Under the pieces are notes generated by a model, which worked only from the letters and a program-made list of their open reading frames with translations, searched no databases and had not been told where the DNA came from. Shown one piece after another: positions 15,248-21,222 of a DNA stretch of 64,000 bases. The translations under genes and the position numbers were made by a program. Source of the DNA: an uncultured Maribacter sp. (GTDB taxonomy: Bacteria > Bacteroidota > Bacteroidia > Flavobacteriales > Flavobacteriaceae); contig NZ_CANMDU010000009.1 in the NCBI RefSeq assembly GCF_947496775.1, positions 1-64,000 of the forward strand, read 5' to 3'. Each line of letters begins with the position of its first letter. Within the stretch, counting starts at the first letter, position 1.

Positions 15248-15336
15248 TTGTGCTAAGTTAGACCGAGGAATTTTGGCTCAACACAAAAAGTTATGGAGTA
15301 GTTAAATAAGGGTGAACTTTGAGTTTAAGAATTTCT

Positions 15337-16581
15337 ATGTCCTCAGGCGCTTTATTTGTAGCTGCTAATTTATTACTTCCCGAAGGCCTTGTTCGGTATT
15401 TTGATATGACCAAGCATGAGATTAAAGGAGAAGAGATACACTTTTACTTTACAGTATTAAATACAGTACCCCAAAAGAATTTAAAGAAGCCAATCTAAAT
15501 TCCAAAGGTTTCTTTGGAGAAGCTGCGGTTCAATATTTTCCTATGCCTGGTACGAATGTATTTCTACATATTACACGACGTAAATGGCTTAATGAATCTA
15601 CGCAAAAGGTAGTTACAAGAGATTGGTAATTAGTAGCAAAAGGAACTAGAATTACTAGTGGTTTTGCTGCTTTTTTTAAAAGAGATCCATTAGTGGCAAT
15701 GCATCCAGTGCGGCAGTTGTATCGAAGTTCTATGGTGTGAACCCTAGAAGTATGCAAAGGCAACACAAAGATTATTTAAGCGACTTACTGTCTTGGAATC
15801 AAAAGAAACATGCAAAAAATTGGATGTTGTTTCCTAAGAATCTAGGAACTTATCTTTCTTTGGACGAAACCGCTTTTTCCAATGGAGATCTATATACCAT
15901 ACTGACCAAAAAAAAGCAAAAGAAAGAAGCCGTAACAGCTATGATTAAAGGAACCAAAGCAGAAGTGGTCATTAAAATTCTACGCAAGATTCCTGTAAGA
16001 CAACGAAAAAAAGTAAAAGGGGTTACTTTGGATATGGCTGATAATATGGGACTCATTGCTAAAAAATCATTCCCTAATGCCACACAGGTTATAAATAGGT
16101 TTCATGTACAGAAACTAGTCTTGGATGCCCTTCAAGAAATCGGAATTAAGCGTAGACGGGAAGCTCTCGATATTGAAAACGATGCAATAGAAAACTCTAG
16201 AAATAATCTTTGAAATATACCCCCTGAACTATTTACTAATGGAGATGCCTTAAGACAGCTTTAACCCGAAGTAGATATCTGCTATATAAGAACAGAGGTA
16301 AATGGGCGCATAATCAATCCGAAAGAGCAAAAATACTCTTTCAGCGATATCCTGATATTGAAAAAGTGTACAAGTTGTGCTAAAACCTATCTTGGATTTT
16401 TGACAACACCAAAGACAAAACTTCGGCACTAATATGATTGGTTAAATGGGATAGAAAAGTAGGACAGGTCAAATTCAAAAGCTTTAATAGTATATCTAGA
16501 ACAATGTCTATTCATTACAAGAACATCCTAAACTACATTGATAGCAGAAGCACCAATCCTTCTGCGGAATTTTTTAGTTAG
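15337..16581 (+). pseudogene. Degenerate ISAon1-like transposase
   Basis: Two-part ISAon1/ISL3-like transposase, heavily decayed. The N-terminal region begins at ATG 15337 (MSSGALFVAANLLLPEGL) and shifts frame near 15465; TAA at 15627-15629 and TGA at about 15738 add breaks. The longest intact piece is 15737-16213, with the first catalytic Asp in LSLDETAFSNGDLYTIL. At 16094-16096 the normally conserved Asp of DRFHVQK is Asn (NRFHVQK). After 16213 more stops and frameshifts follow, yet blocks such as RAKILFQRYPDIEKVY and HYKNILNYIDSRSTN are readable. The reading ends at NPSAEFF and a stop, before the usual C-terminus. Inserted next to the tRNA-Val terminator. No terminal repeats found. Confidence 0.85.
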
Positions 16582-16659
16582 TTTGTTGAAAACTATTTGG
16601 GTAGGTTTGGGGAAGTAAATCTTTATTGTTGTTGCAATAAATTAAAGTTTAAGGATATT

Positions 16660-18000: not shown

Positions 18001-19665
18001 TTATTTTGCTTTCTTTCCTCTAATTGTTTTGTTTTTAGTTTTAGACTTAGAACCTACTCTAGACATTGCGCATCTAAAGCCAATGTAATCTGTAGCCATG
18101 TATTGTGGCATGTATCTTCTTTGTGCGGGATCTAGCCAATATGCTCTGTCTCTCCAAGAACCACCTTTAAAAACTCTTACTTCATTGTTAATTAAAGATG
18201 TCCTGTTGTTAGATTTGTCGTACTCACGTATTAAATTACCCAAAGAATCTTTTTGCACACTATGTTTAGGTGCGTCATACATCTTTTTTTGATTTTCTTC
18301 ATCTTCATCACTGAATCTATCATAAAATCTAGAAGAACTTGCGTCACCATCTCTGTAACCTCTATTGTCACTAGAAGAAAAATTTGTTCTTAGGTAAGTT
18401 TCGTCTTCATCAACTGGAATCATTTTTATTTCGCCAGGTAAATTTAAAGCGACAACTTTTCCGTTTGGTAGCGTATCATAAACTATAGAATCTCTAAGCA
18501 CGTTTACTTTTCCGTCTTCTCCAATAGCCGTTTTCATATAGATATTACCTCTGTAATAATTAAAGTCACTTACTTCGTCATCTACTATCGGTCTATATAC
18601 GTCAGAAACCCATTCTGCAACATTACCAGCCATATCGTATAAGCCTAAATCATTTGGTTTGTAGGACATTACTTGAGCGGTAATATCTGCTCCATCATCG
18701 GACCACCCTGCAATTCCGCCATAGTCTCCTTTTCCTTGTTTAAAGTTGGCTAATTGGTCTCCACGGCCAACACGTTGTCCATTTCTAGTATAATCACCTT
18801 CCCAAGGATATTTTTTTCTACCTCTATAGTTGTTGTATTCTCTAGATCCAGATTGTGCTTGAGCTGCGTATTCCCATTCTGTTTCAGTTGGTAATCTATA
18901 TTCTGGCATAATTACTCCACTACTTCTGTTAGCAAAATTGCTAACACTATCTTTTTTCATTTTACCTTGCAATGAGTCTATTTGTCCGTTATAAACAGAT
19001 TCAGGTCTATTTAAATACGCTTCCGTATTAAAAGTTCCTGCATCTTCTCCAGAAAGGGCTTTATATTTAGCATCTTTAGCTAAATATCCTTCTCTTTCTA
19101 GCATTACTTCATTTACTCTATCTGTTCTCCATTCTGCAAATTGTGTTGCTTGAATCCAGTTAACACCTACTACTGGGTATTCCGCATATGCAGGATGACG
19201 TAAATAATTATTAGTCATAGTTTCGTTAAAACCTAATCGATTTCTCCATACTAAAGTATCAGGTAATGCTCCTTTATATATGTTTGCATATTTAGGGTTT
19301 TCAGGAGGGTATACGCTTTTTAAATAATCTAAGTACTCTAAGTACATAACATTGGTAACTTCTGTTTCGTCCATATAAAAGGACTGTACGTGCTGGGAAG
19401 TTGGCGTATTGTTCCAATCATGCATTACATCATCTTGTACTTTACCTTTGGTAAAAGTACCGCCTTCAATAAAGACTAAACCAGGAGCAGTTTCTTGCTC
19501 TTTAAAATCTGAATTGAATTGGAAACCACCTTCTTTTGCATTTATTTTCCAGCCGGTAGCTCTCGATACATTTTTAGAAGATGAGGTCTTTTTACAGCTG
19601 GTAACTGAAAAACCTCCTGCTATTACAGCACATGAGAGTACAACTTTAATAAACTGTTTTTTCAT
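18001..19665 (-). CDS. gldJ: Gliding motility lipoprotein GldJ
   Basis: A 554-residue lipoprotein of the gliding/type IX secretion apparatus, anchored in the outer membrane facing the periplasm. The signal peptide ends in a lipobox at Cys24 (VTSCKK). The body has the formylglycine-generating-enzyme-like (SUMF1) fold seen in GldJ: FIEGGTFTKG, YMDETEVTN, RLPTETEWEYAAQA, GLYDMAGNVAEWVSD and the C-terminal GGSWRDRAYW and DYIGFRCA. The neighbourhood (murF next, porV nearby) is the usual one. In F. johnsoniae gldJ mutants lack gliding; here function is inferred from family. Confidence 0.96.
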   Translation of the reverse strand: MKKQFIKVVLSCAVIAGGFSVTSCKKTSSSKNVSRATGWKINAKEGGFQFNSDFKEQETAPGLVFIEGGTFTKGKVQDDVMHDWNNTPTSQHVQSFYMDETEVTNVMYLEYLDYLKSVYPPENPKYANIYKGALPDTLVWRNRLGFNETMTNNYLRHPAYAEYPVVGVNWIQATQFAEWRTDRVNEVMLEREGYLAKDAKYKALSGEDAGTFNTEAYLNRPESVYNGQIDSLQGKMKKDSVSNFANRSSGVIMPEYRLPTETEWEYAAQAQSGSREYNNYRGRKKYPWEGDYTRNGQRVGRGDQLANFKQGKGDYGGIAGWSDDGADITAQVMSYKPNDLGLYDMAGNVAEWVSDVYRPIVDDEVSDFNYYRGNIYMKTAIGEDGKVNVLRDSIVYDTLPNGKVVALNLPGEIKMIPVDEDETYLRTNFSSSDNRGYRDGDASSSRFYDRFSDEDEENQKKMYDAPKHSVQKDSLGNLIREYDKSNNRTSLINNEVRVFKGGSWRDRAYWLDPAQRRYMPQYMATDYIGFRCAMSRVGSKSKTKNKTIRGKKAK

Positions 19666-20073
19666 AATTAGGACTTGAGTTCAAATTGTTTACTACAATA
19701 AGCAGTAGTATGGAAATTTGTATTTAGATTAATTTTAGGCTTACTTTCGGGATATAAAACGGCAATTTGTATAGAATATTTTATAGATTAAAAATATTTT
19801 TGAAATCACATTAAATATATATCCAAAAGATAGGTTATAAAATGGATAACGCTGGAAATCCTGTTATATTATTAGTAAAAGCGAATCTTTTATTATGAAA
19901 TTATTGTGTTTAAATTGGAAAATATATTATATGTAGGAAAAAGCTTATTAAGTGAATTGTGAAATAATATTGTTACTCAACACAAGATATCAAAGAAATG
20001 GTCGTTTACCTGTTGAGTAGCTACGTTAAAGATTTGTAGTTAATTATTAGATTCCTAAATCAACTTTTGTAAA
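19666..20073. other. gldJ-porV intergenic region without porU
   Basis: The 408 bases between divergent gldJ and porV have no long open frame. Only short fragments occur, such as one beginning MDNAGNPVILLVKAN at about 19841. An inverted repeat TACTCAACA / TGTTGAGTA occurs near 19975-20021. The T9SS sortase gene porU, commonly placed between these two genes in flavobacteria, is not here, and I could not read any convincing PorU fragment. Confidence 0.6.
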
Positions 20074-21222
20074 ATGAAAAAATTATCGTTACTTTTTTTA
20101 ATCGTTTTTGCTTTTAAATTAAGCGCTCAAGATGACCGTGTAATTACTACTGCGGTTCCTTTTTTAACAATTGCGTCTGACGCTAGAGCAGCAGGTATGG
20201 GAGATATGGGAGTAGCCACTTCCACTGACGCTTTCTCGCAACAATGGAATCCTGCTAAATTTGCTTTTGCAGAAAGAAAAATGGGAATAGGAGTTAGTTA
20301 TACTCCTTACTTAGAAAGTATCATTACGGATATAGCTTTGTTAAATGCAAGCTATTTTAACAAGATAGATGATAGAAGTGCTTTTGCTCTTAGTTTGCGT
20401 TATTTTACGTTAGGAGAAATAGAATTAAGACAATTTGCAAATGACCCTGGTTCTTTGGCTAAACCAAATGAATTGGCTTTAGATGGTTCCTATTCTTTAA
20501 AATTAAGTGAAACATTTTCAATGGCAGTGGGAGGTAGATTTATAAGGTCTAATCTGAAAATTCCTCAGGCTAATAATTCAGAAGATTCGCAAGCAGCTAC
20601 TTCGTTTGGGGTGGATATTGCTGGTTTTTACCGTTCTCGAGAGGTTGCGTACAGTAGCTTTGATGGTCGCTGGAGAGCAGGCTTTAACTTGTCTAATTTG
20701 GGAGGTAAAATTCAGTATGACGAAGGAGGACAAGAGAATTTTTTGCCAACTAATTTGAAATTTGGACTTGGCTTCGATTTTATTTTAGATCAAGATAATA
20801 CCATAGGATTAACGACAGAATTTAATAAACTTCTAGTGCCTACGCCTCAGGATTTTGACAATGATGGCGATGTGGATAGTGTGGATAATGATGAATATCA
20901 ACAAATAGGAGCTTTTGAAGGAGTATTTAAATCCTTTGGAGATGCGCCAGATGGTTTTGGAGAAGAACTAAAAGAATTTACTTGGGCGTTGGGAGCGGAA
21001 TATACGTACCAAGACTCTTTTATGTTAAGAACGGGGTATTTTAATGAAAGCGAAGAAAAAGGTTCTAGGAAGTTTTTTACTTTAGGGGCTGGTTTTAGAT
21101 TTAACTCTGCTCAGATAGATTTATCTTATTTGTTTTCCACATCACAAGTTAGAAACCCTCTAGAAAATACGTTACGTTTTTCTTTGACATTTAATTTAGG
21201 TGAAGAATTTTTTAATGAGTAA
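20074..21222 (+). CDS. porV: Type IX secretion outer-membrane protein PorV (LptO)
   Basis: A 382-residue outer-membrane beta-barrel with an N-terminal signal peptide (cleavage after about residue 18, KLSA/QDD). The N-terminal segment TIASDARAAGMGDMGVATSTD and WNPAKFAF are typical of the PorV/PorQ family. PorV shuttles T9SS cargo from the translocon to the PorU attachment complex. A short Asp-rich loop at about residues 260-272 (DFDNDGDVDSVDND) resembles a thrombospondin type 3/EF-hand calcium site. A terminator follows at 21241. porU, the usual neighbour, is missing upstream. Confidence 0.95.
   Translation: MKKLSLLFLIVFAFKLSAQDDRVITTAVPFLTIASDARAAGMGDMGVATSTDAFSQQWNPAKFAFAERKMGIGVSYTPYLESIITDIALLNASYFNKIDDRSAFALSLRYFTLGEIELRQFANDPGSLAKPNELALDGSYSLKLSETFSMAVGGRFIRSNLKIPQANNSEDSQAATSFGVDIAGFYRSREVAYSSFDGRWRAGFNLSNLGGKIQYDEGGQENFLPTNLKFGLGFDFILDQDNTIGLTTEFNKLLVPTPQDFDNDGDVDSVDNDEYQQIGAFEGVFKSFGDAPDGFGEELKEFTWALGAEYTYQDSFMLRTGYFNESEEKGSRKFFTLGAGFRFNSAQIDLSYLFSTSQVRNPLENTLRFSLTFNLGEEFFNE

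Follow-up and report, generated by a model that had tools for sequence, protein, structure and literature searches.

The gldJ–porV locus and its intergenic region

The window (the whole stretch of 64,000 nucleotides from an uncultured Maribacter sp. that was analyzed) carries the gldJ and porV genes in divergent orientation, and both encoded proteins score far above the cut-offs of their families (Table 1). An earlier note on this DNA had stated that only 408 non-coding bases, with no porU, separate the two genes, and this description was borne out. No open reading frame of 100 or more amino acid residues was found within the intergenic region, and when it was searched in all six frames with the PorU profile, no remnant of the gene was matched. 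The locus is situated well inside contig C9, so that the bare gap does not result from the assembly. Nor is it confined to the window, since a bare gap between gldJ and porV was also found in related genera (median 393 nt, range 119–1075 nt; n = 91 PorU-less loci).

Alignment of the intergenic region among eight genomes of the genus (alignment A1) revealed three short conserved blocks, which probably represent the two divergent promoters or leaders. The GGTCGTTTACC element before porV was considered as an ancestral porU promoter and was rejected as not general, being present in 16 of 90 PorU-less and 3 of 68 PorU-positive upstream regions. Elsewhere in the window, between a folC-like and a murF-like gene, an apparently degraded insertion-sequence transposase was noticed.

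Table 1. Positions of the features described in the text (window coordinates unless another locus is named)
Feature	Position	Strand	Description	Evidence
Degraded insertion-sequence transposase (apparent)	~15319..16600		ORFs 15319..15498, 15737..16213 and 16438..16581	
gldJ	18001..19665	-	Gliding motility/T9SS lipoprotein GldJ, 554 aa	NCBIfam TIGR03524 equivalog, 882 bits (cut-off 458), E 2.2e-265
gldJ–porV intergenic region	19666..20073	.	408 nt, non-coding; slot filled by porU (~3.8 kb) in relatives	
Conserved block abutting gldJ upstream	19666..19696	-	Probable gldJ leader/promoter	Alignment A1, 8 genus genomes
Second conserved non-coding block	19723..19805	.	Probable regulatory region	Alignment A1
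Conserved block ACACAAGATAT...GGTCGTTTACC preceding porV	19980..20016	+	Probable porV promoter/leader	Alignment A1
porV	20074..21222	+	T9SS outer-membrane carrier of type-A cargo, 382 aa	NCBIfam NF033710 equivalog, 545 bits (cut-off 250), E 7.2e-164
Lipoprotein gene	L139:786..1508	-	Paralogue of the lipoprotein in L145	
Lipoprotein gene	L145:1722..2402	+	Paralogue of the lipoprotein in L139	
Lipoprotein homologue	L060:14439..15140		Weaker homologue of the two lipoproteins	
Shortened or frame-broken porU (apparent)	L174:3969..6584		G226; truncated ORF	Two C25 matches

PorU is absent from the genome and from the genus

PorU is the type IX C-terminal signal peptidase/sortase and is regarded as a core T9SS component; in P. 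gingivalis, the PorU step trims and anchors cargo. The earlier note had proposed that porU was either moved elsewhere or lost, and only the second of these was upheld. In whole-genome searches with Peptidase_C25 (PF01364), neither the window genome (G000; 3.96 Mb assembly, 99.8% complete) nor its seven congeners gave a match, so that the close relatives do not carry porU at another place. With the PorU model NF033707, all eight genus genomes gave only CTD-like tails of other proteins (model positions ~920–1090), none of them above the cut-off. The recommended search of the rest of the genome for PorU, PorZ and PorQ detected none of the three.

A porU that was relocated, or that diverged past easy recognition, and is still functional is very improbable, and is already ruled out at the level of sequence. 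Although none of the 14 standard genomes provided a positive control for the C25 search, the identical search detected C25 in 20 relatives at E 1e-83 to 1e-115, and both the outcome with the full-length PorU model and the concurrent absence of PorQ and PorZ argue against a hidden gene. Incomplete assemblies, or one misassembled locus, have a negligible chance of accounting for the absence. Broken MAGs do explain some mixed patterns of presence (in G022, for example, porU is cut at a contig end; L125, L246), but 84 of the 249 genomes with a completeness of at least 90% gave no C25 match at all, several of the C25-less genomes consist of a single contig (G043, G054, G078, G122, G164, G165 and G241), and the gldJ–porV junction is contiguous.

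The ancestral order is gldJ–porU–porV

Among the named relatives fetched by GldJ, loci L025–L070 (GldJ 70–91% identical) lack porU at this position; they belong to Pelagihabitans, Maribacter, Arenibacter, Pareuzebyella, Eudoraea, Cellulophaga, Zeaxanthinibacter, Robiginitalea, Flagellimonas/Muricauda, Croceivirga, Galbibacter, Robertkochia, Leptobacterium and Sinomicrobium. In loci L071–L104 (Aequorivita, Altibacter, Olleya, Gelidibacter, Dokdonia and others; GldJ 65–70% identical), a porU gene of ~3.8 kb fills the slot, and the boundary between the two sets is sharp. In ten genomes of the same order but of other families, porU is likewise divergent from gldJ and is followed by porV. The typical gaps are 222 nt between gldJ and porU and 37 nt between porU and porV (n = 66), and in nearly all PorU-less loci gldJ and porV are adjacent. 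Because porU occupies the slot in these ten genomes and in almost all porU-bearing relatives, the arrangement gldJ–porU–porV, with gldJ divergent from the other two genes, is ancestral; the comparison of synteny called for in the earlier note thus confirmed the F. johnsoniae-type arrangement as the starting point.

In the nearly complete genome G226, porU is apparently shortened or frame-broken (Table 1), possibly because the gene is being lost or because the sequence contains an error.

porU was lost repeatedly

The regions flanking porV were collected from 80 genomes and outgroups, gldJ, porU and porV were located by profile, and a tree of 97 rows was built from concatenated GldJ and PorV. 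On this tree, the presence of PorU requires at least seven changes, all of them forced by well-supported (starred) branches, with the reservation that transfer of the locus could distort this count, as the tree is built from two T9SS genes. When the PorU-less Flavobacteriaceae were constrained to one clade, the topology was rejected (delta lnL 1287, p-AU 4.5e-52). In view of the constant position of porU at all PorU-positive loci and its presence in the outgroups, the changes are interpreted as losses. They fall on (1) G026, of another family; (2) G069, sister of the PorU-positive G290 of the same genus; (3) G241; (4) the group of G014, G053, G122 and G133; (5) G164; (6) G011/G260 and the small-genome groups around the PorU-positive G065; and (7) the large clade containing the window. 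The loss in the lineage of the window is old and clade-wide, and loss has occurred at least seven times.

For one of these independent lineages, there is direct evidence that porU decayed in place. On a contig of 3.1 Mb in G164 (L156), the C-terminal 39 residues of PorU (profile positions 1237–1275, E 4e-9) are still encoded between gldJ and porV; this fossil is in frame, ends immediately before porV and has stop codons upstream. No such remnant persists in the lineage of the window.

PorQ and PorZ are lost together with PorU, and PorV is retained

C25/PorU, PorZ and PorQ were each searched separately in 299 Flavobacteriaceae genomes, and two weak C25 matches (G151, G210) and six weak PorZ matches were set aside before tallying. 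All three proteins were found in 181 of the 299 genomes and none in 102, leaving 16 genomes with mixed patterns, mostly incomplete assemblies. With the weak matches set aside, PorU and PorZ do not disagree in a single genome of at least 90% completeness. Among the mixed genomes, the best case is G153 (L212; 100% complete), where PorU and PorZ occur without PorQ. In the window genome, the PorQ model (NF033711) gave no match at E 1e-60, and the PorV model, which detects PorQ as well in PorU-positive genomes, matched only PorV. The N-terminal propeller of PorZ (PF21544) was not matched in the window genome or its congeners. PorV was kept in 53 of the 55 PorU-less genomes tested, the two exceptions being genomes of 1.2 and 1.6 Mb. 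PorU, PorQ and PorZ were thus lost as one module, with the carrier PorV retained.

Two further arrangements of porV were observed. The PorU-less genomes G133 (L230) and G053 (L231) have a second PorV-family gene apart from gldJ, at 344–352 bits and above the cut-off, and G273 has two porV genes (L224, L225), neither of which adjoins gldJ.

PorV and type-A cargo after the loss of PorU

PorV remains highly conserved in PorU-less genomes, and when its divergence was compared with that of GldJ, PorV was only slightly faster in these genomes. A signature of PorU loss in PorV was rejected, and a single site remains as a lead. At residue 185 of the window PorV, most PorU-positive PorVs have Tyr and several independent PorU-less lineages have Phe; the change from Tyr to Phe tracks the loss in ~5 of 7 independent pairs and runs counter to it in none, but the site was selected after scanning the whole alignment and therefore gives only a lead to a putative contact site for PorU or the CTD.

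Type-A cargo was also retained. In the window genome, 15 type-A CTD matches (TIGR04183/PF18962) were found, on proteins that include a subtilase, a right-handed beta-helix protein (both with Pfam matches), a P-domain protein and a SprB-repeat protein. These tails have the canonical YPNP and GxY motifs, and canonical CTDs are retained in PorU-less genomes. In a set of 40 genomes, the genus of the window had 11–20 type-A tails, compared with 15–109 in PorU-positive members of the family. In the survey of 299 genomes, at most 18 type-A candidates were scored per genome, so that a count of 18 stands for at least 18; the median was 7 in PorU-less genomes (n = 102, four of them with at least 18) and at least 18 in the PorU-positive genomes on the tree (n = 23). 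Across ~6 phylogenetically independent pairs, tails were fewer without PorU in 5.4 and more in none, for which the sign test was borderline (median p 0.06). The type-A cargo set is therefore smaller in PorU-less genomes. G166 (L161), which keeps PorU, PorQ and PorZ and has only five scored type-A tails, indicates that cargo reduction is possible without loss of the module.

Proposed fate of type-A cargo

According to the published model, PorV collects type-A cargo at the translocon and hands it over to PorQUZ; there, PorU cleaves off the CTD and links the cargo to LPS that is supplied by PorZ (PMC10202324). Type-B cargo instead remains bound to its own carrier (PMC12635249). With PorU, PorQ and PorZ gone and PorV strongly conserved, the simplest reading is that PorV exports the cargo and that the CTD is not removed by a sortase. 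It is very probable that the 408-nt gap marks the former site of porU, in a T9SS that was stripped of PorQUZ and still uses PorV. The gene was deleted from the slot between gldJ and porV in an ancestor of the Maribacter/Arenibacter/Flagellimonas/Galbibacter/Sinomicrobium clade, the sorting and attachment module of PorQ, PorU and PorZ was lost as a whole with the carrier kept, and the same module-wise loss occurred at least six further independent times in the order.

Type-A cargo would then still be loaded onto PorV, and its CTDs would no longer be cut and joined to LPS by the PorU sortase. The consequence drawn in the earlier note, that T9SS cargo would escape the usual cleavage and attachment if porU was lost, may plausibly hold. 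If the CTD is not removed by a sortase, the cargo either stays bound to PorV or is shed with its CTD. It might be held on PorV through the intact CTD, as type-B cargo is on SprF/PorP-like carriers; alternatively, it might be shed with the CTD on, or be trimmed by general surface proteases. Cargo that stays on PorV or retains its CTD is favored over a dedicated replacement peptidase, and we would put it at nearly an even chance.

The replacement of PorU by an unrelated peptidase or sortase, by which type-A cargo would still be cleaved and perhaps anchored, is unlikely. The persistence of canonical type-A tails and of PorV, which indicates that the type-A route is still in use, would agree with such an enzyme, and an unrelated peptidase would escape the searches made here. 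Nevertheless, no candidate was identified by them, the cargo repertoire shrinks where PorU was lost, and the same replacement would be needed alongside each of the at least seven losses. It is similarly doubtful that type-A cargo is released with its CTD on and without a dedicated anchor, surface display being left to type-B cargo and lipoproteins. The reduced number of type-A cargos would fit such a release, as would the absence of PorQ and PorZ, the LPS suppliers to PorU in the published model (PMC10202324), but the exit of cargo from PorV without PorU would be left unexplained, and the sequence of PorV is little changed.

A broader and more tentative proposal is held at rather less than even: PorQUZ would be a single evolutionary cassette shed by flavobacteria at least seven times, and in the lineages concerned either PorV would serve as the terminal surface anchor or there would be a new release route, which would amount to a sortase-independent secretion of type-A cargo.

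Comparison with known systems

The canonical PorV and the type-A CTD tails resemble those of the PorQ–PorU–PorV–PorZ complex of P. gingivalis and its F. johnsoniae homologues, and the gldJ/porV locus is syntenic with that of F. johnsoniae except for porU. Unlike in these two species, no PorU, PorQ or PorZ is present, that is, no known CTD peptidase/sortase or LPS-delivery partner. The type-B cargo on SprF/PorP-like carriers, where an uncleaved CTD holds the cargo (PMC12635249, PMC9143113), is proposed as a model for PorV; the parallel is an inferred one, as PorV is a general type-A carrier and not a dedicated one.

The absence of PorU and PorQ is already known from two sponge isolates, Aa_F7 (closest 16S match Flagellimonas) and DN50, which form spreading colonies on agar; in that study, 27 motility and T9SS proteins were compared in a few dozen genomes, and the gldJ neighborhood was compared with that of F. 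johnsoniae (Gavriilidou et al. 2020, PMC7440613). Like these isolates, the window genome lacks PorU and PorQ beside gldJ (PMC7440613). Relative to the available text of the same paper, the observations on PorZ, the whole-clade pattern, the recurrence, the fossil and the cargo trend are additional. In the literature searched here, no earlier report was found of the co-loss of PorZ, the scale, the recurrence or the fossil.

About one third of the sampled Flavobacteriaceae, including cultured Maribacter, Cellulophaga, Flagellimonas and Arenibacter, are without PorU, PorQ and PorZ and have kept PorV and type-A cargo. This natural experiment separates export (PorV) from sorting (PorQUZ), and the fate of sortase-less type-A cargo is directly testable, with matched pairs available within one genus, such as G290 (with PorU) and G069 (without PorU). 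Type-A proteins of these genera should not be annotated as LPS-anchored.

Lipoproteins beside type-A cargo genes

Two paralogous lipoproteins, 38% identical, were observed in the window genome (Table 1), each encoded directly downstream of an unrelated type-A cargo gene, one for the beta-helix protein and the other for the P-domain protein; the one that was scanned gave no Pfam match. The neighborhoods of 40 cargo genes from PorU-positive genomes contained no such lipoprotein, and a role as a cargo partner is possible. A general replacement anchor was considered and rejected, because the lipoproteins adjoin just 2 of the 15 cargo genes. Orthologues of the lipoproteins are present in L287 and L288, and a weaker homologue is present in L060.
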